Origin: Desulfovibrio sp. ZJ369 | Lineage (GTDB): Bacteria; Desulfobacterota; Desulfovibrionia; Desulfovibrionales; Desulfovibrionaceae | Direction: 5' to 3' | Assembly (NCBI RefSeq): GCF_011039085.1 | Contig: NZ_JAAKEI010000013.1 | Coordinates: 1 to 64,000, forward strand | Length of the DNA stretch: 64,000 nucleotides | Shown here: one piece after another, positions 1-53,803 of the stretch | Position numbering within the stretch: the first letter of the stretch is position 1 | Layout: each line of letters begins with the position of its first letter | Notes under the pieces: model-generated | Database searches by the model: none | What the model was told of the DNA's origin: nothing | What the model saw: only the letters and a program-made list of their open reading frames with translations | Made by a program: the position numbers and the translations under genes

Positions 1-126
1 AAAGCAAAAACATGTGATGAACTGTATAAATCCATTGGAAAAGCATTAAGTTGTATCACACAAAAAGACGCTGAAGGATGGTTTAAATCCTGTGGATATG
101 TAAAAAGTTAAAAGCAAAATGCTCTA
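1..126 (+). mobile_element. IS630-type transposase C-terminus and right end of the IS (partial)
   Basis: The last 36 codons of an open frame (stop TAA at 109-111) enter from the left edge. They end in a Trp-Phe-Lys-Ser-Cys-Gly-Tyr segment, typical of the C-terminus of IS630/Tc1-mariner transposases, which cut and paste at TA dinucleotides. The catalytic DDE residues lie outside the window. Fifteen bases after the stop comes GCTC followed by TA (125-126), which I read as the right terminal inverted repeat plus the TA target. The fragment is clearly more AT-rich than the rest of the window, consistent with transferred DNA. The outermost 17 bases recur at the ends of repeats at 28843 and 42988. 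The family call is by motif only. Confidence 0.75.
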
Positions 127-154
127 GTGGCAGCCCTCATTAGAGCATTTTGCT
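113..154. repeat. 14-bp inverted repeat at the IS right end
   Basis: Two perfect 14-base arms (113-126 and 141-154) face each other across a 14-base loop. The left arm is the IS right terminus. The right arm begins TAGAGCATTTTGCT, the same terminus pointing outward, so a second element or a remnant probably starts at 141. The hairpin may also terminate transposase transcription. Confidence 0.8.
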
Positions 155-3109: not shown

Positions 3110-3199
3110 TGGCGGAAGGGGAGGGATTTGAACCCCCGGATGCCTCACGGCATCAACGGTTTTCAAGACCGCCGCATTAAACCGCTCTGCCACCCTTCC
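3110..3199 (-). tRNA. tRNA-Ser (anticodon UGA)
   Basis: Read on the minus strand, a 90-base tRNA begins GGAAGGG, pairs with CCCTTCC and ends in an encoded CCA. The anticodon loop CTTGAAA gives UGA, which reads UCA serine codons. The long variable arm (GATGCC...GGCATC) confirms a class II tRNA. The T-loop GGTTCAAATCC is intact. Confidence 0.95.
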
Positions 3200-14258: not shown

Positions 14259-14332
14259 GAGCAGATTCACTTTGAAAATGCTCTAACGCTGTCGCCAGAG
14301 CGTTTAGCTCATTTCATGAGCAAAACGCTCTC
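14259..14332. repeat. GAGC/GCTC palindromic element (two hairpins)
   Basis: A degenerate left unit (GAGCAGATTCAC...AAAATGCTCTAA) is joined by CGCTGTCGC to a well-formed AGAGCGTTT...AAACGCTCT hairpin containing TTCATGAGCAAAACGC. It is the same family as 19000-19269. Confidence 0.75.
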
Positions 14333-18260: not shown

Positions 18261-18324
18261 GCGGGCCGCGCGGGCAGGCCCCGCTCGCCGCCGTGTGCGC
18301 CGCCCTTGCCAGATGGAGGCAGTC

Positions 18325-19002
18325 ATGACCGTGATGAAGGAATTTACCAAGGGGCTCTGGAAAGAGCTGCCCCCGTTCCGCCTGGTGCTGGGCCTCTGCC
18401 CCACCCTGGCCGTGACCAATTCGGCCGACAACGGCCTGGGCATGGGCCTTGCGGTTATTTTTGTGCTGGTGCTCTCCAATATGCTGATCTCTATGGTGCG
18501 CGGCATTATTCCGAAAAAAGTGCGCATCGCCTGCTTTATCGTCATTGCGGCCTCTCTGGTGGTGGCCGTGGAGCTGCTCATGCAGGCCTATGCGTATCCA
18601 CTGTATCAGCAATTGGGCATCTTTGTGCCTTTGATCGTGGTCAACTGCATCATCCTTGGCCGGGCCGAAGCCTTTGCCGCCAAAAACGGCGTGGCCGGGT
18701 CCGTGGCCGACGGCCTGGGCATGGGCCTGGGTTTTACGCTCTCCCTGACTTTTCTGGGCTCGTTGCGCGAAATTCTGGGCAATGGCACCTGGTTCGGCCA
18801 CAGCGTCATGTGGGAAAACTTTGAGCCGTTCCGTATCATGGTTCAGGCTCCGGGCGCCTTCATCTGCCTGGGCCTGATCCTCGCGGGCATGAATGTGATC
18901 AATGTCTGGCAGGCCCGACGCAAGGGCGCGCAGGCTCAGGCCATGAACCAGGGTTGCGGCGGCTGCCGGGCCTGCGGCCTGGGCGCGCGCGAGGAGCAGT
19001 AG
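18325..19002 (+). CDS. rnfE: Rnf complex subunit RnfE
   Basis: A 225-residue integral membrane subunit with six hydrophobic helices and the family blocks LGLCPTLAVTNSADNGLGMG and VPLIVVNCIILGRAEAFA. RnfA and RnfE pack as pseudosymmetric partners holding an iron-sulfur centre in the membrane. The start at 18325 is set by GGAGG. The last 20 residues form an unusual cysteine-rich tail (CGGCRACGLG). The TAG stop is the first three bases of the repeat element that follows, which separates rnfE from rnfA by 400 bases. Confidence 0.92.
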   Translation: MTVMKEFTKGLWKELPPFRLVLGLCPTLAVTNSADNGLGMGLAVIFVLVLSNMLISMVRGIIPKKVRIACFIVIAASLVVAVELLMQAYAYPLYQQLGIFVPLIVVNCIILGRAEAFAAKNGVAGSVADGLGMGLGFTLSLTFLGSLREILGNGTWFGHSVMWENFEPFRIMVQAPGAFICLGLILAGMNVINVWQARRKGAQAQAMNQGCGGCRACGLGAREEQ

Positions 19003-19269
19003 AGCGTTTTGCTAATGGAATTAGCTAAACGCTCTGGCGACAGCGTTAGCTGGCGCCCGCGCCGAATGAGCGTCCAGACCGCGTTGCGGTAGCCGTTAGC
19101 AAGCTTTGCTTGCTTACGGATAGCGACAGCGGTTGCGTTGGCTGGCTGCCGCAGTAACCAGTTGCTGTCTTCATCCGTAGCTTCCTTCGTCGCAACGGCT
19201 GAAGCCTGGACGCGAAATGATGGCAGCGAAGTGATTGAAAATGAATATTTTCAATCAGAAAATGCTCTA
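19000..19269 (+). repeat. long GAGC/GCTC palindromic element with 120-bp internal module
   Basis: A 270-base element lies between rnfE and rnfA. It opens with a hairpin (AGAGCGTTTTGCTAATG paired with AATTAGCTAAACGCTCT), continues with a GC-rich scaffold, a central GCGTCCAG/CTGGACGC hairpin and a closing hairpin (GATTGAAAA/TTTTCAATC), and ends GCTCTA. A 120-base fold-back module (19086-19205) is inserted at the tip of the central hairpin. The element at 34802-34951 is the same scaffold without the module. TA flanks both ends. Its first three bases are the rnfE stop codon. Confidence 0.9.
19086..19205 (+). repeat. 120-bp fold-back module, copy 1
   Basis: Begins GCGGTAGCCGTT and ends AACGGCTGAAGC. 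It differs from copy 2 (28946-29065, minus orientation) at one base of 120. Nested complementary segments pair in order (AGCCGTT/AACGGCT, TACGGAT/ATCCGTA, GACAGC/GCTGTC, GGTTGCG/CGCagtAACC), with a side hairpin AGCAAGC-TTT-GCTTGCT. It is noncoding by inspection. Confidence 0.85.
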
Positions 19270-19402
19270 AGCATGGCGGCGCGGGATCCGATCCGCAGTG
19301 CCTGTTTCCGGGTACGGCCGCGCCTGCGGCACGCGCGCTCTGAACAACGGCATCACGGCTATCTGCCCCGGGCTTGTACTCCATAGCGGCAAGGAGCGGC
19401 AC

Positions 19403-21691: not shown

Positions 21692-21763
21692 ATGATAATT
21701 GCATTGGTGTGGCTGGCACTTGTTATAACAGGAGGCATGATTTTTGCGCGATACAGAGTCTGA
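21692..21763 (+). CDS. possible 23-residue single-pass membrane peptide
   Basis: Four bases after the previous stop, an ATG opens 23 codons ending in TGA. The product has about 17 hydrophobic residues (MIIALVWLALVITGGMIF) then ARYRV, a plausible one-helix peptide with its basic end in the cytoplasm. There is no strong Shine-Dalgarno, so translation would rely on coupling to the upstream stop. It could equally be fortuitous sequence ahead of apbE. Confidence 0.35.
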   Translation: MIIALVWLALVITGGMIFARYRV

Positions 21764-21788
21764 AATCATGTCGCAAGCCGGAGGCAGC

Positions 21789-22841
21789 ATGTCGAAGCAG
21801 TATAGCCGTCGTTCTTTTTTGCGCGCCGCGTTTTTGGGAGGCGGCGTTCTTGCGGCCGCATCTCTGGCGCCTGCGCTGCTGCCCATGACCGCCCGCGCCG
21901 GCGCAGGCGCGGCGGACACGGGGCATGTTCCCCTGACCCGGACAAGCCTGTTCATGGGCGCCATTGTCAGCCTCAGCGTGGCCAATGCCCCGGCGGCGCA
22001 GGCTGAAGAGGGCATGGGCCGCGCCTTTGCCGTGGGCCGCGGACTGGCGGACGTGTTCAGCCGCTTTGCCGCGGGCTCGGCCCTGAGCGCGCTCAATGCC
22101 GCGGGATCTCTGGCGGATGCGCCGCCGGCGCTCATGGCCCTGCTGGAGCGCGCCCGGCGCATGGGCGTGGTGACCAACGGCGCTTTTGACGTGACCGTGC
22201 TGCCCGTGCTGCGTCTTCTGGAGGCCGGGCGTAATCCTCAAGGCGTCATGCGCCTGGACGCCGCCGAAATGCGCCAGGCCCTGGAACTGGTGGGCGCGGA
22301 TCATCTGCGTTGCGGCGCGGGCCGGATCGACTTTGCCCGCGCAGGCATGGGCGTCACCCTGGACGGCATTGCCAAGGGGCATATTGCCGAGGCCATGTCC
22401 CGGGAGCTTGCGGCCGCGGGCTGCCCGGATCATCTGGTCAATGCCGGAGGGGACATTGTGGCGCGCGGCCGCAAAGCGCTGGATACGCCCTGGCGCGTGG
22501 CCGTGGAAGATCCTCAGAAGCGCGGGCGTTTTCCGCAGATCGTGGATCTTGCATCGGGCGGCGCTATGGCCACTTCCGGCGGCTATGAAGTTTTTTACGA
22601 CGCCGCGCAAAGGCACAATCATCTGGTCAGCCCGGCCACGGGCCAAAGCCCGGCGCTGGCCGGAGTGACCGTGACCGCGCCCGACGGCCTCACGGCCGAC
22701 GCGCTGGCCACGGCCCTGGCGGTCATGCCTGCGCGCGAAGCCCTGCAACTGGCGGATGCCCTGCCGGGCTGCGCCTGTTGCCTGTTGCGCAAGGACGGCC
22801 TCATGCACGTTTCAACGCGCTGGCCGGGCCGGGCAGCCTAG
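21789..22841 (+). CDS. apbE: FAD:protein FMN transferase ApbE
   Basis: About 350 residues. It covalently attaches FMN from FAD to threonine in the SGAT motifs of Rnf/Nqr subunits. It starts with a Tat signal (SKQYSRRSFLRAAFLGGG) and an Ala-x-Ala cleavage zone near residue 37, so it acts in the periplasm. Family blocks are FDVTVLPVLRL, DFARAGMGVTLDGIAKGHIAEAM, NAGGDIVARG, and the C-terminal HLVSPATG and LTADALATAL. GGAGG 4 bases upstream fixes the ATG at 21789 over a TTG at 21744. The RnfG flavinylation site in the same cluster is its likely target. Its stop TAG is the start of the following repeat. Confidence 0.93.
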   Translation: MSKQYSRRSFLRAAFLGGGVLAAASLAPALLPMTARAGAGAADTGHVPLTRTSLFMGAIVSLSVANAPAAQAEEGMGRAFAVGRGLADVFSRFAAGSALSALNAAGSLADAPPALMALLERARRMGVVTNGAFDVTVLPVLRLLEAGRNPQGVMRLDAAEMRQALELVGADHLRCGAGRIDFARAGMGVTLDGIAKGHIAEAMSRELAAAGCPDHLVNAGGDIVARGRKALDTPWRVAVEDPQKRGRFPQIVDLASGGAMATSGGYEVFYDAAQRHNHLVSPATGQSPALAGVTVTAPDGLTADALATALAVMPAREALQLADALPGCACCLLRKDGLMHVSTRWPGRAA

Positions 22842-22910
22842 AGCGTTTTTTGATTGAAAATGGATATTTTTAATCAAAAAATGCTCTAATTTCATTAGCA
22901 AGCCGCTCTA
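22839..22910. repeat. GAGC/GCTC element filling the apbE/sugar-transferase gap
   Basis: A hairpin (AGAGC...TTTTTTGATTGAAAA with its complement ending AAAATGCTCTA) is followed by a short tail ending GCTCTA. The left TAG is the apbE stop and, on the other strand, the right TAG is the stop of the sugar transferase gene, so the entire convergent gap is one element. It probably acts as a bidirectional terminator. Confidence 0.85.
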
Positions 22911-26874: not shown

Positions 26875-26945
26875 AGAGCATTTTTTGATTGAAAATGAAT
26901 ATGTTCAATCAAAAAATGCTCTACTTTCATGAGCAAAATGCTCTA
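26875..26945. repeat. GAGC/GCTC palindromic element at the rlpA 3' end
   Basis: AGAGCATTTTTTGATTGAAAA pairs with TTCAATCAAAAAATGCTCT, followed by a CTTTCATGAGCAAAATGCTCTA tail. The right-hand CTA is the complement of the rlpA stop TAG. The left boundary has CA instead of TA. Confidence 0.85.
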
Positions 26946-27656
26946 GCTTCCCCCTACCACAAAGGCGCTGGGATAGAGGGCCTTGAACAGGCGCAGCATC
27001 TTTTGCGCGCCGAAAGAGTCGGTCCAGGGGCCGACCTGCACGTTCCACATGTTGTTGCTGCCGAACTGCAAGCGGCCCTTGTGCCCGGCCTGCGTCAGGA
27101 TGCGGACCAGCCTGTGGGCGTTCTGCTTGTCGGCAAAGGCTCCCACCTGCACATAGAAAGGACCGCGCATGTCGCCGTCGGCGCGCAATTGCGGGATGCC
27201 GCCCAGGCTTTGCACGCGCACTCTGGCCGTGCCCGCGCCCATCATGTTCAGGCGCGTGGCCGCCCCGCGCGAGAGATCAATGACGCGATCCTCCACAAAC
27301 GGGCCGCGATCATTGATCCGCACGATCACTGAGCGGCCGTTGCCCAAATGGGTGACGCGCACCTTGGTGCCCAGGGGCAAGAGCTTGTGCGCCGCGGTCA
27401 TGGCATACTGATTGTAGCGCTCGCCGTTGGCGGTTTTTTTGCCGTGAAAGCCCGGCCCGTACCAGGAAGCCACGCCCACTTCCACAAAGCCGTGCGCGGA
27501 TTTAAGCGGATAATAGGTTTTGCCGCGCACGGTATAGGGCTTGCTGCCCGGCACGCCGCCCTTGCGCCAGGAGCCGCGCGAGCCGCAGCCGCTCACAAGC
27601 GCCGCGCACAGCAGAAGCGACACACAGACCCAGAGCGCGCGGGCCGCTTTTTTCAT
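26943..27656 (-). CDS. rlpA: RlpA-like septal lytic transglycosylase (lipoprotein)
   Basis: A 237-residue lipoprotein with a lipobox at ALVSGC24. A double-psi beta-barrel domain (about 58-150) contains GVASWYGPGFHGKKTANGE with the catalytic Glu, then TNLGNGRSV-like and IVRINDRGPFVEDRVIDLS. A SPOR domain (about 165-235, FYVQVGAFADKQNAHRL...NVQVGPW) binds denuded septal glycan. It cleaves peptidoglycan strands lacking stem peptides during division. Its ATG overlaps the upstream unknown gene by 4 bases. Confidence 0.93.
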   Translation of the reverse strand: MKKAARALWVCVSLLLCAALVSGCGSRGSWRKGGVPGSKPYTVRGKTYYPLKSAHGFVEVGVASWYGPGFHGKKTANGERYNQYAMTAAHKLLPLGTKVRVTHLGNGRSVIVRINDRGPFVEDRVIDLSRGAATRLNMMGAGTARVRVQSLGGIPQLRADGDMRGPFYVQVGAFADKQNAHRLVRILTQAGHKGRLQFGSNNMWNVQVGPWTDSFGAQKMLRLFKALYPSAFVVGGS

Positions 27657-28824: not shown

Positions 28825-28842
28825 GGCATCCCTTTTTGCTGT

Positions 28843-29122
28843 TAGAGCATTTTGCTTTTGAAATTATTCAATTTCAAAAGCGGCGCTGCCATCATTTCCC
28901 CGCAAGCGGGACAAGCGCCTGAAAAGCGTGGTTTTCAGGCTCATTGCTTCAGCCGTTGCGACGAAGGAAGCTACGGATGAAGACAGCAACTGGTTACTGC
29001 GACAGCCAGCCAACGCAACCGCTGTCGCTATCCGTAAGCAAGCAAAGCTTGCTAACGGCTACCGCCGGCGCGGGCGTCCGCTCCCGCGGCCGCCAGAGCA
29101 ATTTCAAAGTGAAATTGCTCTA
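28843..29122 (-). repeat. long GAGC/GCTC element, inverted, with 120-bp module copy 2
   Basis: Read on the minus strand it has the same architecture as 42840-42988: opening hairpin, GC-rich scaffold (GCGGCCGCGGGAGCGGACGC), a CCTGAAAA/TTTTCAGG central hairpin and a closing hairpin ending in 17 bases identical to the IS630 right end at 113-126 and inward. It differs by carrying the 120-base module and an 18-base CCCGC/GCGGG insert. TA flanks both ends. Confidence 0.88.
28946..29065 (-). repeat. 120-bp fold-back module, copy 2
   Basis: Identical to 19086-19205 except for one C-to-T difference in the GGCTG-CGCAG loop region. Here it interrupts the scaffold between GCCCGCGCCG and AATGAGCC, a different site from copy 1, which interrupts the neighbouring central hairpin. 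Confidence 0.85.
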
Positions 29123-29612
29123 AAATCGCTTGTCGGGCGAAAGCATTCTATGCGTAAAGCCGCCTCTTTGCCAAGACCGCGGGCCCGTGGAAGTATTCAC
29201 ATTTTCAATGAAAGCGATACACTAATAAGGCGAAATCACAGCAAAAAAGTTCAAAAATCATCAAAAAGGCGAATGTCTCGCCTCGTGTCCACAGCCCTGC
29301 CGTGTCCGGGGCGCTGTGAAAACGCGATCAATGTTCAGGCGCACCGGTTGTCATCAGCACGAAAATGAGATATGCAACTGAGAGACTGCGTTGCGGCCTG
29401 GGGGCGAGGCTTCGGCCCGTGCGCCCGTTCGCAATCCCTTGCGCGGGCCGCCTGCGGCAAGGCGGCCGTTGCGTTGGCGGGGCGCGTTCCGGATTCGGCA
29501 AATCCACGATCCTGGTTCGCGATATTCCGGGAACGGCGCGCTGGAACATGAAGCGCCGGAACGGCATGTCACGTTACTGCGTGATACAACCAAACCATGT
29601 GGAGGTATGGCA
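29123..29612 (+). promoter_or_regulatory. dsrA upstream region with candidate promoter and dyad
   Basis: 490 bases without a gene. TTCACA (29196-29201), 16 bases, then TACACT (29218-29223) form a reasonable promoter, followed by an A-rich stretch typical of strongly expressed genes. It implies a leader of about 380 bases. A second landmark is the dyad TGTCACG-N6-CGTGATACA (29567-29588), 25 bases before the dsrA ATG, possibly a regulator site or part of a leader hairpin. Both assignments are by eye only. Confidence 0.35.
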
Positions 29613-33465: not shown

Positions 33466-33632
33466 TAGAGCAGATTACCTTTGACTTTTTATGAAAGTCA
33501 AAGGTGGCATTCAGGCGAAAAACGCGGTTTTCGCCTGAATGTACGCCGCGTTGCGGCGGCTGCCGCTTTCGCGTCAGCAGAGCATTTTCAAAGTGAAAAT
33601 GCTCTAAATAAAATAAAAGTGAAAATGCTCTA
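33466..33632. repeat. GAGC/GCTC element, three hairpins
   Basis: It starts TAGAGCAGATTACC with a CCTTTGACTTT/AAAGTCAAAGG hairpin, then a perfect 13-base ATTCAGGCGAAAA/TTTTCGCCTGAAT hairpin, then AGAGCATTTTCA-AAG-TGAAAATGCTCT, and a final AAAATGCTCTA copy. It lies between the convergent amrA and lysO genes and may terminate both. Confidence 0.85.
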
Positions 33633-33727
33633 ATGCTGGCCGCGAAAAACCCGCGTCCGGGCAGTGGCTGCGCAGGCAATCCGCGCCCTGCAGAAAAGGC
33701 GGGAAGATGAACGCCGGCGTCACAGGA

Positions 33728-34441
33728 TCAGAGAGTGCAGAAAAAAACCACCCAGAAGGGCACGCTGAAATCCAGAATCAGGGCGTGCACAATGGAGACG
33801 AAAATCCATTGCCGACCCGCGTAGCGGGTGATGATCGGCAAGGTTGTATCCATGGTCGAGGCGCCGCCGCAGGAGATGGCGGCCAGCGGCCCAAGAAAGC
33901 GGACCAGCAACGGCGTGAGCAAAAGGGTCAGAATTTCGCGCATGATGTTGCTGATCAGCGCCACGGTGCCCAGTTCCGCGCCCTTGTACTGGGTGATGAC
34001 GATGGACGAGAGCGAATAATAGGCGAAACCCGCGCCCACGGCCAGACAGTCCGCAAGACTGTATGCCAGAAAAATGCCGGCCAGGGTCACGCCCGCAAAC
34101 GTGCCCACAGTGGTGGCAAGCGGGGCAAGCAGCACGCGCGGGCGCAAGGTGCGCAGGATTTCGCCCAGCCGCCGATCCGAGCCGATGGACAGACCTACCA
34201 GAAACATCAGCAGCCAGAGTACATACAGCGTGGCGTCATGCTCCACAAAATACCGTGGAATCAGGCCCAGCCAGGCCAGGGCCATGCCCGCCCCGAAAAA
34301 AGCCAGAATCAGCAGGCTGCCGGACATACGGAACTTCGCCCCCAATACGGTAGTGCGCCCCAGGGGCGCGGTTGCCCTGCCCTGGCTGCAGGCCGCGCGC
34401 ACGCGGCAAAGTTGTTGCGGCAGACGCGGGCGGCGCGTCAT
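33728..34441 (-). CDS. lysO: lysine exporter LysO family protein, larger part
   Basis: 237 residues with about six helices. It matches the C-terminal two thirds of LysO (YbjE), the L-lysine exporter: LWLLMFLVGLSIGSDRRLGEILR, GFAYYSLSSIVITQYKGAELGTVALISNIMREI and GGASTMDTTLPIITRYAG, which holds the conserved acidic transport residue. The N-terminal third is encoded separately by the overlapping upstream gene, a split arrangement also known in other bacteria. The first 35 residues are basic and non-conserved, so translation may start later, near residue 38. Confidence 0.85.
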   Translation of the reverse strand: MTRRPRLPQQLCRVRAACSQGRATAPLGRTTVLGAKFRMSGSLLILAFFGAGMALAWLGLIPRYFVEHDATLYVLWLLMFLVGLSIGSDRRLGEILRTLRPRVLLAPLATTVGTFAGVTLAGIFLAYSLADCLAVGAGFAYYSLSSIVITQYKGAELGTVALISNIMREILTLLLTPLLVRFLGPLAAISCGGASTMDTTLPIITRYAGRQWIFVSIVHALILDFSVPFWVVFFCTL

Positions 34442-34773
34442 TGGCCGCGCTGCGGCCGGGGTTTTTTGCCGTCGCTTTTCCGCCCTGCCCGCGGGCAGGG
34501 CGTTGCCGGCAAATCGCAGAACCAGCGGCGGATCACGGCCACGCAGACCAGAGATCCGGCAACGCCCGCCAAGGTCAGAAGCAGAGCCTTGCCGCCCAGC
34601 AGAGGCAGATTGCGCATCAGGGTCTCATTGCCGCCCACGGCCACGCCCAGGGAAAAAAGCAAAAGCATGATCGCGGGCGTGACGCAGCGCGTGAGCGCGG
34701 TGAGAAGGCGTTGGCCGCGCAACAGAAAACCGAGCAAAAGGCCCAGGAACATGATGCCGATGGCGATGAACAC
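34438..34773 (-). CDS. LysO family protein, small N-terminal part (DUF340-like)
   Basis: 111 residues with three hydrophobic helices (FIAIGIMFLGLLLGFLLRG, AIMLLLFSLGVAVGG, ALLLTLAGVAGSLVCVAVI), corresponding to the N-terminal third of single-chain LysO. It overlaps the larger part by 4 bases (ATGA), indicating production of the two chains together. The basic C-terminal tail (GRKSDGKKPRPQRGQ) would be cytoplasmic. Confidence 0.83.
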   Translation of the reverse strand: MFIAIGIMFLGLLLGFLLRGQRLLTALTRCVTPAIMLLLFSLGVAVGGNETLMRNLPLLGGKALLLTLAGVAGSLVCVAVIRRWFCDLPATPCPRAGRKSDGKKPRPQRGQ

Positions 34774-34801
34774 GTTTTGTCCACTCCCCCGCGTCGGCGT
34801 T

Positions 34802-34951
34802 TAGAGCGTTTTGCTAATGAAATTAGCTAAACGCTCTGGCGACAGCATTAGCTGGCGCCCGCGCCGAATGAGCGTCCAGACCGCGTTCTGGACGCGAAAT
34901 GATGGCAGCGAAGTGATTGAAAATGGATATTTTCAATCAAAAAATGTTCTA
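34802..34951 (+). repeat. GAGC/GCTC element lacking the 120-bp module
   Basis: 150 bases with the same scaffold as 19000-19269, near-identical over its length except that the central GCGTCCAG/CTGGACGC hairpin is uninterrupted. It ends ATGTTCTA (a one-base change from GCTCTA). The terminal TAG on the minus strand is the stop of the adjacent gene. It is the empty-site comparison for the module insertion. Confidence 0.9.
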
Positions 34952-35905
34952 GCCGCGCGTCACCTGCCGCAAGGCCCGGCGCAAAAAGGCCAGCATGGCC
35001 GCATAACGCTGCTCCTCATGCAGAAGATAATCCACGTCCCAGAGCACCCAGACCAGATGCCCGCGGTGGCGGGTCTGCTGCAAGGGGCGCAGCGTGCCGG
35101 GCAAGGCCAGGGCCTTGACCGCCGCCGAACCCATGACCACCACGCCGCGCGCGCCGAGCCTGCTCACGCCGGACCAGAAGACGTCGGGGTTGGCCGCGGC
35201 GTCGTCGCAGGGGGCCGAACCTTCCATGTCGTGAGGGGCCGCCGCCCCACTGCTTGCGGGGGATGCCGCAAGCGCATCCCGCGCGGCTGTGGGAGGCCCT
35301 GGGCGCAATGCGGATGCCGTGGGCAGGCAGGCGGGCCAGAATGTGTGCGTGCCGCCGGGATGGCCCAGGTCGGCCAGCAAACGCTGCAAAAAAGCGCGCC
35401 GCGCGGCCTGGCCTTCGTCCCGCAGGCCTTCAAGATCCTGGCCCAGCTTCCAATAGGTCCAGAGCACCAGACCCGGCCGCGTGGCCGCCAGGCGCTGCTG
35501 CCAGGGCGCGGGCCAGGCATGAGGCGGCAAAGGCCGCCAGGCGTCTTCGTTTCGGGCAGGGGCAGATCTGTCCAACGCAGGCTGAACAGCGCCGGTGATC
35601 CGCTCCGCGCGTTCTTTCTGTTCGCTCCGTTCCCCGCGCGCCCGCTGGCGCGCCTCATTTTCTGCCGCCCGGGCGGCGTAGCTCTGGGCTGTCCGCATGC
35701 CGCGCGGCGGCGCGGCGCCGGCAGGGGGCAGACGGACATGGGGCGCAGCCGCCGGGGCCGGTTTTTTTTTCGGCGCAGGCGGCGCGCCCGGCGTGGGCTC
35801 CCGGCAAAGGGAGCAGGACGCGGGCGCGTCCTGGGGCAGCAACAGACAGTGCAGGCCGCGGCCTTGCCAGAGTGCGCCCAGCGGGTTCAGATCCGCAAAA
35901 GCCAT
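34949..35905 (-). CDS. uncharacterised protein, possibly uracil-DNA-glycosylase-like fold
   Basis: 318 residues. An early Cys pair (CSLC) is followed by a Pro/Ala/Arg-rich linker (about 45-115). A C-terminal globular part (about 125-318) contains LVLWTYWKLGQDL, GGTHTFWPACLP and GARGVVVMGSAAVKALAL. The last block resembles a strand-helix of the UDG superfamily, but the catalytic motifs are not evident, so this is only a suggestion. GGGAG lies 8 bases before the ATG at 35905, within the 3' end of coaBC (19-base overlap). Confidence 0.6.
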   Translation of the reverse strand: MAFADLNPLGALWQGRGLHCLLLPQDAPASCSLCREPTPGAPPAPKKKPAPAAAPHVRLPPAGAAPPRGMRTAQSYAARAAENEARQRARGERSEQKERAERITGAVQPALDRSAPARNEDAWRPLPPHAWPAPWQQRLAATRPGLVLWTYWKLGQDLEGLRDEGQAARRAFLQRLLADLGHPGGTHTFWPACLPTASALRPGPPTAARDALAASPASSGAAAPHDMEGSAPCDDAAANPDVFWSGVSRLGARGVVVMGSAAVKALALPGTLRPLQQTRHRGHLVWVLWDVDYLLHEEQRYAAMLAFLRRALRQVTRG

Positions 35906-37125
35906 GAGCACAACTCCCAGGCCACGTCAGCCTTGCTTTGCGAGGGCCAGATTTCCTCGCGGCCGTGAGCGTCCACCACCGCCATGCTGTTGGTAGGGGA
36001 ACAAAAACCGCAGGCGGGCGCGTTGATTTGATTGGCGGCCAGCAGATCCGCCTTTTTGCGGGCCAGTTTGGCGCGTGCCAAAGGCAGGAGCGCCTCTGTG
36101 CTGGGCGCGCATTCCGCGGCGAAGCCGAGAATTTTTTGCGCGTCCGGGCCGTTGCGGCGCGCGGCGGCCAGGGTCTGCAAAATATCGGGGTTGGGCGTAA
36201 ACGCTATGCTGAAGCCCTCCGGCGCCTCGGATTTTTTGAATTTGCGCGCGCCCAGCGGGATGGGTGAAAAATCCGCCACAGCCGCGGCGAACATGCCCAT
36301 GTTCATGCCCGGCCAGAGGTCGCGCGCGGCCTCGAACATGTCCCGCGCGCCGCAAACCTCGCAGCGATGCACGCCTTGCGGCAAAAGCGCCGCGCCGCCA
36401 GGGCCGCAGACGGCCGTCACCTCGGCCCCGCGCAGCCAGGCGCAGATCGCCAGCGCCGCGCCCATCAGGCCGCTGGAGGGATTGGACCAGAAACGCACGC
36501 CGTCCCAGGCTTCACGGGTTGGCCCCAAGGTGACCAGCACCTTTTTTCCGGCCATATCCTGCGGGGCCAGGGCCTGCAAGACCGCGAGAAAAATTTCCGG
36601 CAGCTCGGCCAGCCTGCCCTCGCCCTGGTCGCCGCAGGCCGTGCCGCCGCAAGCGGGCGCCACCAGCCGCGCGCCGCGCTCCCGCAGCAAGGCCGTATTG
36701 GCCCGTGTGGCCGGGTGGGCCCACATGCGCGGATTCATGGCCGGAGCCAGGATCAGGGGGCCGTCAAAAGCCAGGGCCTGCGCCGAGAGCAGATCCGAAG
36801 CCGCGCCGGCCGCCAGACGCGAGAGCGCGTCGGCCGAGGCCGGAGCCAGCACCAGAGCCTGGGCGTGCTGACCCGGCTCCAGATGCGCGAATACTTCCTG
36901 GCCGGGCGCGAACATGTCCGTGTAGACCGGGGCCGCGCCCAGGGATTCAAAGAGCAGCGGCGTCACAAAACGCCGCGCCCCGGCGGTGAGCGTCACCGAA
37001 ACATGGATGCCGAGCGCGCGCCAGGCCCGCAACAGTTCCGGGGCCTTGCAGCAGGCCACGGAGCCGCAGACGCCCAAATGCAGGCGGCTGTTGGCAAAAT
37101 GCGTGCTTTGCCCGAAAGGGGTCAC
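35887..37125 (-). CDS. coaBC: bifunctional phosphopantothenoylcysteine decarboxylase/synthetase
   Basis: 412 residues, cytoplasmic, catalysing two consecutive steps of coenzyme A synthesis. The FMN-dependent CoaC domain (about 15-185) has GVCGSVACCKAPELLRAW, LAPASADALSRLAAG and the substrate-binding PAMNPRMWAHPATRAN, with the later Cys motif CGGTACGDQGEGRL. The CoaB synthetase domain (about 195-412) has VLVTLGPTREAWDGVRFWSNPSSGLMG, AAAVADFSP and the conserved lysine in KFKKSE. A GTG start at 37125 overlaps the stop of the lipoprotein gene (GTGA), with GGAG upstream. Confidence 0.93.
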   Translation of the reverse strand: MTPFGQSTHFANSRLHLGVCGSVACCKAPELLRAWRALGIHVSVTLTAGARRFVTPLLFESLGAAPVYTDMFAPGQEVFAHLEPGQHAQALVLAPASADALSRLAAGAASDLLSAQALAFDGPLILAPAMNPRMWAHPATRANTALLRERGARLVAPACGGTACGDQGEGRLAELPEIFLAVLQALAPQDMAGKKVLVTLGPTREAWDGVRFWSNPSSGLMGAALAICAWLRGAEVTAVCGPGGAALLPQGVHRCEVCGARDMFEAARDLWPGMNMGMFAAAVADFSPIPLGARKFKKSEAPEGFSIAFTPNPDILQTLAAARRNGPDAQKILGFAAECAPSTEALLPLARAKLARKKADLLAANQINAPACGFCSPTNSMAVVDAHGREEIWPSQSKADVAWELCSWLLRI

Positions 37126-41921: not shown

Positions 41922-42842
41922 ATGAAACTGCCTGAACTTCCCCCGGTGTTGAAAATGCGCGTTGTGCTGAAAACCCTGGCCGTGCAGGCCAGCCTTCTGG
42001 TGGGCATTCTGGTTGTGATCTGGGGCCTGCAACGCGTTTATGGCATAGTGGACGCCACCACCTTTCCGGATCCCGTAGCCGTGCCCGAAAATGCCGACCA
42101 GCTTGCCGACAATGAAAAAGGCAAAATCCTGCTGGACGCCATTACCCATCAACTGCGCTATGAGCTGGATTCCCCCTTCGGCTGGAGCTTCAACGACATC
42201 ATCTTCAACCGTTTCGCGCTGGATAACCGCGCCTACCGCCAATATGGCGTCTACCACGCCACAAAATTCCTGCTGGATCTCTATTCCAGCCAGATCGCCA
42301 AACTGGGCTCCAGCGACCGCGAAAGCGAATTTCTCTATAAAGCGCGCATCAACAGCTTTGCCCTGGATCCGCGCAGCTTCATGTTCCCTTCGGCCGAGGG
42401 CTCTTACAAAAAGGGCCTCAAGCTGCTGGAGCAGTATAAAGACTCTCTGGACAAGGGCACGGGCGTCTATAATTGCCGCACCGATGATCTGTACGCCTCC
42501 TTTGTCACTGTCACCGGCGAAAACCTGCTGGGCTACGCCCTGGGCCTGTTGGAAAATGCCCAGGACATGTCTTTCCATGAGCTGGATAATCGCATCTACG
42601 AAGTGCAGGGCATCGTGCTGGTGCTGCGGGACTTCATCAATACCCTGTATGTTCTGTATCCTGAGATCCGGGCCAAAAACAATGAGGACAACATGGCCGC
42701 GGTCATGGAGTACCTGAACCGCATCTGCACCTATGACCCGCTTTACATCACCTCGTCTTTTAACTCCGGGGAGCTGGTTCTGTCCTATCTGATGTTCGCC
42801 AAGGCCCGTTTGGAAGACATCCGCGACAGCATCCGCATTTAG
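41922..42842 (+). CDS. DUF2333 family membrane-anchored protein
   Basis: 306 residues. One transmembrane helix at about 20-40 (TLAVQASLLVGILVVIWGL) and a large extracytoplasmic helical domain carrying the family block ITHQLRYELDSPFGWSFNDIIFNRFALDNRAYRQYGVYHAT (about 73-114) and the closing YDPLYITSSFNSGELVLSYLMFAKARLEDIRDSI. Function unknown. It is monocistronic. The TAG stop is the first three bases of a repeat element. Confidence 0.85.
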   Translation: MKLPELPPVLKMRVVLKTLAVQASLLVGILVVIWGLQRVYGIVDATTFPDPVAVPENADQLADNEKGKILLDAITHQLRYELDSPFGWSFNDIIFNRFALDNRAYRQYGVYHATKFLLDLYSSQIAKLGSSDRESEFLYKARINSFALDPRSFMFPSAEGSYKKGLKLLEQYKDSLDKGTGVYNCRTDDLYASFVTVTGENLLGYALGLLENAQDMSFHELDNRIYEVQGIVLVLRDFINTLYVLYPEIRAKNNEDNMAAVMEYLNRICTYDPLYITSSFNSGELVLSYLMFAKARLEDIRDSIRI

Positions 42843-42988
42843 AGCGGTTTGCTGTTGAAAGCGGCAACCGCTCTGGCGGCCGCGGGAGCGGACGCCCGCG
42901 CCGAATGAGCCTGAAAACCACGCTTTTCAGGCGAAATGATGGCAGCGCCGCTTTTGAAATTGAATAATTTCAAAAGCAAAATGCTCTA
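42840..42988 (+). repeat. GAGC/GCTC element without module (second scaffold type)
   Basis: 149 bases: AGAGCGGTTTGC/GCAACCGCTCT hairpin, GC-rich scaffold, GCCTGAAAA/TTTTCAGGC hairpin and CTTTTGAAATT/AATTTCAAAAG closing hairpin. The last 17 bases equal the IS630 right end (113-126 and inward). It is the module-free counterpart of the element at 28843-29122. TA at both ends; the left TAG is the DUF2333 stop. Confidence 0.9.
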
Positions 42989-43012
42989 GGGCCTGCCCCT
43001 GCCTGACGCGCA

Positions 43013-43050
43013 AGGGCGCGCCCCTCATCGTGAAGACGGGGGCGCGCCCT
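43013..43050 (-). terminator. strong GC hairpin downstream of gap
   Basis: AGGGCGCGCCCC (43013-43024) pairs with GGGGCGCGCCCT (43039-43050) over 12 bases. It lies 53 bases past the gap stop, in the convergent DUF2333/gap gap. There is no clear T-run on either strand, so efficiency is uncertain. Confidence 0.5.
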
Positions 43051-53608: not shown

Positions 53609-53644
53609 GAGCGGTTTAGCTAATTTCATGAGCAAAACGCTCTA
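53609..53644. repeat. GAGC/GCTC element (short)
   Basis: GAGCGGTTTAGC pairs imperfectly with GCAAAACGCTC around AATTTCATGA, ending in TA. A truncated repeat of the right half follows directly. Confidence 0.7.
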
Positions 53645-53803
53645 CTTTCATGAGCAAAACGCGCTGCTGTTATGCGTTACATGGAATCCGCCTGCGCAAA
53701 CGGCCGCTCCGATCCGGTCGGGACAGGAGAGCCGCTTCGGCGGCGGAGCCGCACTTCGCTCCCACGAAGCCTGCGGCTTCGGGCGATGCTGCAGCATCGC
53801 CGT

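Follow-up and report, generated by a model that had tools for sequence, protein, structure and literature searches.

The closest described systems are small structured repeats of other bacteria. RUP, the repeat unit of pneumococcus, is described as a non-coding repeat of about 110 copies, found near IS elements, that has ends like those of a resident IS630 element and targets TA (PMC2229807, PMC3049150). BOX, in Streptococcus pneumoniae, is presented as a modular structured repeat with variable internal modules, terminal inverted repeats and a target duplication (PMC3049150). The ERIC/IRU, Correia/NEMIS, YPAL and CIR repeats are about 100-200 bp long and form stable stem-loops, most of them with TA termini and a target duplication (PMC2229807), and MITEPsy1 of Pseudomonas syringae is a MITE that inserts at CTAG or YTAA (PMC3189936). 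Among the titles and opening lines of abstracts listed from the open-licence literature, none was seen to describe, in Desulfovibrio, the repeats reported here from Desulfovibrio sp. ZJ369. We call the whole 64,000-nucleotide stretch that was analysed the window.

The contig begins inside an IS630-family insertion sequence, so that window positions 1-126 (+ strand) are a right-end remnant. The last 36 codons (36 amino acids) of the transposase frame occupy 1-111, and the right inverted repeat with its flanking TA lies at 110-126; read inward it is TAGAGCATTTTGCTTTT, that is TA-GAGCATTTTGCTTTT, also written TA-GAGCATTTTGCTTTTAAC. This right end is present in 19 exact copies in the 2.88-Mb draft genome. 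No more than 160 bp separate 17 of these from the end of a contig, which is where a repeat that broke the assembly should lie. A fuller copy, L005, carries a 243-residue frame with a DDE_3 match (PF13358, 1.3e-36) and a winged-helix match under the curated cut-off of that model; the D-34-E spacing, counted by hand on the translation, is that of the DD34E type. Both features expected of an IS630 member, a DDE_3 transposase and terminal inverted repeats beside TA, were thus found. With L005 as query and the best 40 candidates scored, at least 26 of the 41 matches listed extend to the IS right end. The left end could be read in two copies, TA-GAGCATTTTCACTTTTATTTTATTT (TA-GAGCATTTTCACTTTTATT) in L044 and TA-GAGCAATTTGACTTTTATTTTATTT in L049, one of the two giving TA-GAGCATTTT and the other TA-GAGCAATTT; the sequence-only reading had named this end in one of its two tests, and the result favours it. 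Isolated 21-28 bp pieces of the left end also lie near other elements, at L044:1083-1103 and in the window at 33605-33632 (- strand; TAGAGCATTTTCACTTTTATTTTATTTA), the latter identical to the L044 left end and abutting a 141-bp element; they are possibly deletion relics or one-ended events.

Two further observations concern these IS copies. Bases 1-121 of L005 are part of a second, abundant insertion sequence, IS1-like in type, which has inserted into the IS630 copy and has one end near TTAATACTCTC; its end pieces, 110-136 bp long, turn up repeatedly (L051, L052, L054, L055, L056), often close to the edge of a contig. Within the IS630 transposase gene, a run of A residues measures 7 (L005:209-215), 8 (L044:1588-1595) or 9 (L049:1588-1596), and the 7-A run keeps the frame whole while the other lengths break it, which could reflect slippage-based expression or decay.

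The ends of related insertion sequences in the family are mostly TA-GAGC. The nearest named relative, from Desulfovibrionaceae bacterium A70_62_DF_DSS, has a protein 88% identical, and the IS ends of four further records from Desulfovibrio or Desulfovibrionaceae, with proteins at 52-59% identity, read TA-GAGC followed by lineage-specific bases, the right end alone being readable in L109. In one relative, G137, the two left ends are GAGC and all four right ends deviate by one or two bases, GATC, GAGA or GGGT replacing GAGC in three of the four read and GATC standing in the fourth too. A terminal-repeat finder run on the IS loci recovered the ends of L164, L072 and L074, returned chance-like pairs alone in L165 and L166, and returned nothing in L171, L073 and L044.

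The same termini recur across the window. TAGAGCRTTTT occurs 17 times against a mean of 0.01 in shuffles, exact TAGAGCATTTTGCTTTT is found 92 times genome-wide (0 in the reversed control), a count that covers the IS right ends, and the 17-base IS right end also terminates the repeats at 28843-28859 (+) and 42972-42988 (-), so that the shared termini, and their recurrence at 28843 and 42988, were correctly read from the sequence. Palindromes of the form TAGAGC-N12..42-GCTCTA, with TA on both feet, number 84 in the genome against 4 for the reversed pattern. A window scan for GAGC...GCTC hairpins with at most one mismatch in 11-bp arms and unrestricted feet, which overlooks more diverged hairpins, gave 15 against 1 in the reversed sequence. 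Five of the 15 are 12-15 bp long and chance-like, one is composite and nine measure at least 25 bp; among these nine, TA stands on both feet in three, on one foot with CA/TG on the other in five, and on neither in one. The statement that all well-formed copies read TA-GAGC...GCTC-TA is therefore not borne out, and of the "some fifteen palindromes" first proposed the palindromes stand, their number being nearer eleven places. Four of the nine are the terminal hairpins of modular elements of 141-280 bp.

These places comprise solo hairpins, remnants and long elements, which we describe by their end types (F1-F6 and F8). A truncated end recognised by sequence (TAGAGCATTTTGCTAA; 141-156, +) lies 14 bp 3' of the IS end. 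Solo 29-bp hairpins with TA on both feet are found at 1061-1089 (F1) and 1263-1291 (F8), and a solo 50-bp F2 hairpin at 22839-22888 is followed by half an F4 hairpin; an F2 hairpin with half an F4 hairpin lies at 26876-26945 (-). The composite remnant at 14275-14330 (-) consists of an end GCTCTA and then an F4-type hairpin without TA feet, and degenerate F4-type copies were recognised by sequence at 53610-53650 (-). The long modular elements run from an F4 end to an F2 end at 19000-19269 (+, 270 bp); from an F3 end, which matches the IS right end, to an F8 end at 28843-29122 (-, 280 bp; a 100% copy at C36:11259-11538, the best 40 candidates being scored); from an F6 to an F1 end at 33466-33606 (-, 141 bp, a second body type, with a diverged copy of the same architecture in G202); across 34802-34951 (+, 150 bp); and from an F5 to an F3 end at 42840-42988 (+, 149 bp; 179.3 bits against R1, our covariance model of the ~149-bp form).

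The likeness of element ends to IS ends holds for some types and fails for others. After TAGAGC, the F3 end equals the right end of the genome's own IS in 11 of 12 bases, and the F1 end (CACTTT form) and the F8 end equal its left end in 11 and 10 of 12, respectively. The F2, F4, F5 and F6 ends reach at most 7-8 of 12 bases with any IS end read, a level that base shuffles attain in 42, 7, 2 and 6% of cases, and have little beyond GAGC in common with those ends. Elsewhere in the genus, two G249 elements have 5' ends that agree in 12 of 12 bases with the right end of the IS of L075, from another, named Desulfovibrio, and in L075 itself an element adjoins the IS left end with a TA in common. The palindrome scan gave reversed controls of 0-9 in the genus; in other genera the reversed control often reached or exceeded the count (27 in G043; 22 against 9 in G016), so that the pattern is no evidence there. 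The nine 29-bp palindromes of G016, from another genus of the family, include eight identical copies of TAGAGCATTTTGCTTTTGAAAATGCTCTA and remain below that reversed control (22); G016 has IS630 relatives at 46-52% identity. A different recurrent palindrome, TAGAGCCTTCCCCTWWAGGGGAAGGCTCTA, was seen in five genomes of genus g39 (G066, G100, G112, G124, G136).

The long elements are modular. In the loci analysed there are 122 distinct TA-to-TA spans, some of which lie inside others, and the long spans measure mainly 141, 142, 149-151, 167, 184-189 and 262-317 bp. At one end (F1, F4, F5 or F8) stands a complete hairpin, its outer foot TA and its inner foot CA or TG; at the other (F3, F2 or F6) about 10 bases separate the hairpin from the TA. 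F3 is paired with F5 in 25 spans and with F8 in 12, F1 with F6 in 6, and other pairings occur too. In the interior, hairpin modules are swapped whole, a unit of roughly 18 bp occurs once, twice or not at all, and some elements have a block of roughly 120 bp that others lack; five 149-bp copies are identical. Size and copy number (84 solo palindromes, at least 39 matches of about 149 bp, spans of up to 317 bp) fit a MITE. Solo copies and broken remnants are common, and we infer that the solo hairpins of 28-51 bp are end-derived relics or minimal elements.

Duplication of the TA could be read at one locus. At L208 a 149-bp element sits at the TA of an F4 hairpin whose uninterrupted paralogue, L005:960-1014, aligns over 55 bp at 96.4% identity without a gap; the single TA of the paralogue becomes two TAs around the element. 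This is the one case judged clean, giving one clean paralogous site with TA duplication, among 4 candidates from 24 elements and 16 from 122 spans; in the remaining candidates one flank was judged to have matched itself, a hairpin nearby or a repeat of unrelated sequence. Orthologous comparison agrees for the two longest window elements, since 19000-19269 and 28843-29122 are missing at the syntenic places of G202, G126 and G137 (six of six comparisons): the counterpart of window 18975-19391 (415 bp) measures 45-66 bp in the three relatives, and the element within 28842-29306 is missing in all of them. The empty sites proposed as a check thus exist as element-free places, at which the flanks are too diverged for a single TA to be read; for the other window elements the flanks were unusable in these relatives or other sequence stood at the place. 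In the reverse case, an element of G137 near C1:95332 is absent from the window and from G126.

The target is more specific than TA. Of 213 element ends, 176 have a purine after the distal TA, as do 22 of 23 IS right flanks; of the 1058 TAs of the window, 315 are followed by a purine and 72 are YTAR. Some of the purines at ends and flanks lie in a neighbouring element that has the TA in common. The IS and the elements have a common YTAR target.

Many of these targets are stop codons. Six reading frames of the window end in the TAG of one of five elements: a Rnf-Nqr subunit gene (18295-19002), whose stop is the first TAG of 19000-19269; an ApbE-family gene (21744-22841), stopped by the hairpin at 22839-22888; a DPBB/SPOR gene of the lytic transglycosylase type (26943-27656, -), stopped by the end TAG at 26945-26943; ORFs 33707-34804 and 34949-35911 (-), which stop at either end of the 150-bp element (TAG at 34802 and at 34951-34949); and a DUF2333-like gene (41922-42842), stopped by the element at 42840-42988. 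Pfam assigned families to four of the six (Rnf-Nqr, ApbE, DPBB with SPOR, DUF2333) and gave no match for the two ORFs. When three of the genes were compared with syntenic relatives, the stop was displaced by no more than two codons in eight of nine comparisons and by five codons in the ninth (the ApbE gene in G137). The relatives' own stops are TAG in five cases and TGA in four, including all three for the DPBB/SPOR gene, so the relatives give no support there for a TAA or TAG stop before insertion.

The association extends beyond the window. Of 213 element ends in the own-genome loci analysed, 104 are preceded by an open run of 80 codons or more, counted without requiring a start codon and with overlapping loci thinned by distinct upstream sequence alone, and the longest such run is in frame with the element TAG in 70 of the 104, against 21 and 13 in the other frames (p = 1.6e-12 versus one third). 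In-frame stops were likewise found at 31 of 46 ends in other species and at 10 of 13 G183/G196 loci, compared with 20 of 59 other YTAR sites and 31 of 250 other TAGs in the window; IS right flanks lie in frame as a stop in 8 of 13 cases. The other-species test used 58 of 67 matches, leaving out three own ones (L328), a cut-off one (L369) and the secondary matches L340, L330, L199, L194 and L337. Counted over the other-species matches and 13 more, the model-5' end is in frame in 34 of 88 and the model-3' end in 21 of 86, an orientation bias that is weak at most. A purine after the distal TA is as frequent at other ends (117/143) as at in-frame ends (59/70) and is therefore no marker of stop codons; at 11 in-frame ends with C or T there, the joined site would be a tyrosine codon, i.e. 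a cut gene. The simplest reading of stop-codon landing is target preference plus survival, since YTAR is rare in this GC-rich DNA, stop codons offer it, and an element that starts with TAG spares the protein.

According to the IS left end, the empty sites and the common YTAR target, IS630-type mobilisation in trans is the most likely explanation. We consider it probable, from the sequence comparisons, that the repeats are mobile but non-autonomous, and that IS630-family (DDE_3) transposases with ends starting in GAGC moved them in trans. The transposase would recognise TA-GAGC together with a lineage-specific stretch, excise the element and insert it at a YTAR site with duplication of the TA. 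Where the target TA is that of a TAA or TAG stop, the gene would keep its full length because the element itself begins with TAG; insertions inside genes would be lost, and stop-codon landings would survive. Each long element is a series of hairpins that change in sequence but stay paired, which may be due to selection or to hairpin-templated repair.

The initial idea of MITEs mobilised by an IS630-type transposase is therefore supported by the IS left end, the empty sites and the YTAR target and must be qualified in the rest, since many copies are modular multi-hairpin elements of 141-317 bp, the end types are dissimilar and some element-rich relatives (G183, G196, G162, G202) lack a DDE_3 match. 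A DDE_3 search gave no match in G183, G196, G162, G126 and G202, which have 34, 34, 30, 19 and 34 R1 matches, respectively, so that movement by this group of IS is inferred. Conversely, G137 has both IS and elements and only 4 exact solo palindromes, and across the genomes compared the number of palindromes did not track the presence of the IS. A solo hairpin common to G183 and G196 at an orthologous place also counts against mobility. Such a distribution would be explained if GAGC-ended IS630 copies were repeatedly gained and lost, with the small elements outliving them.

The fold of the long elements is preserved as their sequence changes. In an alignment, made by sequence, of 16 distinct long elements of the own genome and one of G137, a 53-pair structure has 99.3% of its cells paired, a figure favoured by the structure having been folded from the same 17 sequences. 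Double changes affect 15 of the 53 pairs, against 0-6 when partners are slid by 1-3 columns, and none of 500 shuffles reaches 15. Over 66 diverse rows they affect 48 of 53 pairs against 17-26 slid, to be read with caution since that alignment was fitted to the covariance model. Of the 79 genomes available for the genus, 48 have an R1 match at E <= 0.001; nine genomes have at least 39 matches and a few one weak match alone. Among 58 matches, 42 start with TAGAGC, 33 end with GCTCTA and 27 do both. The sequence comparison across species drew on 59 of 80 matches; some weak R1 matches (L354, L356 and, at their ends, L346-L348) do not resemble the element. An orthologous solo hairpin in L259 (G183) and L250 (G196), near 1501-1538, has changed arms that largely still pair.

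Covariation of this kind may also arise without function. Hairpin-templated repair, known as quasipalindrome correction, would keep the arms complementary even if the DNA served no purpose; this is possible if somewhat unlikely, and it is compatible with trans-mobilisation. Whole-arm replacements between copies of one genome (GCCTGAAAA/TTTTCAGGC versus GCGTCCAGA/TCTGGACGC) and the perfect solo palindromes fit template switching, but repair alone leaves unexplained the internal-loop strands GCCCGCGCCGAATGA and GCGAAATGA, which are invariant in the 17-row set (16 copies of one genome plus one) and diverge in other species. On the side of function, we regard as rather unlikely, and offer tentatively, a genus-wide mobile structured element that acts as a portable gene end: beginning with TAG, it would dock in the YTAR of stop codons and supply a stop and a folded 3' untranslated region, its fold kept by compensatory change while transposases come and go.

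A structured RNA or DNA signal under selection, for instance a mobile 3' untranslated region that gives a stop and a protective fold and was merely spread by transposition, would likewise be compatible with trans-mobilisation. The double changes, the persistence of elements where DDE_3 was not found and the excess of in-frame stops in all three samples favour such a signal; the weak orientation bias, similar folding energies on both strands and the abundance of solo copies and broken remnants speak against it, and we judge it unlikely. Rfam 15 offered no family matching the repeats at gathering score in the window, where a tRNA (3113-3199) alone was found, and a permissive search of 42800-43030 returned sub-threshold matches alone. 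Very improbable, finally, is the reading of the repeats as REP/BIME elements, with a REP-associated Y1 (HUH) transposase as the mover in place of IS630: hairpins and high copy number would suit it, and of 16 genomes tested 10 have Y1_Tnp proteins (4 in G000, 13 in G202), but no Y1_Tnp match was found in G183 (34 R1 matches) or G087 (29), so that repeat-carrying genomes do not regularly have the enzyme, the YTAR target is common with IS630, and TA was duplicated at one insertion, whereas HUH transposases are not known to make a target duplication.

If mobilisation in trans by IS630 is right, the genus holds a further IS630/MITE pair like RUP, in which dense insertion would be tolerated as the first three bases of the element are a stop and the target is often a stop codon. 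Its copies would form a large natural set for separating selection on folds from hairpin-templated mutation. RUP with IS630-Spn1 is the nearest precedent found, with its IS630-like ends and TA target. However, RUP is one simple 107-bp sequence, whereas here there are several end types, modular bodies of 141-317 bp and solo hairpins; a fold common to many species of the genus, a YTAR target and stop-codon landing also set the present elements apart. MITEPsy1, as described, differs in its 4-bp duplication and in ends like those of ISPsy2, of the IS5 family. The ends of BOX have been likened to ISSpn2, and its boxB modules are in tandem, whereas here hairpin modules are nested, swapped or inserted. 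In shape, CIR, described with two arms and a linker, comes nearest.
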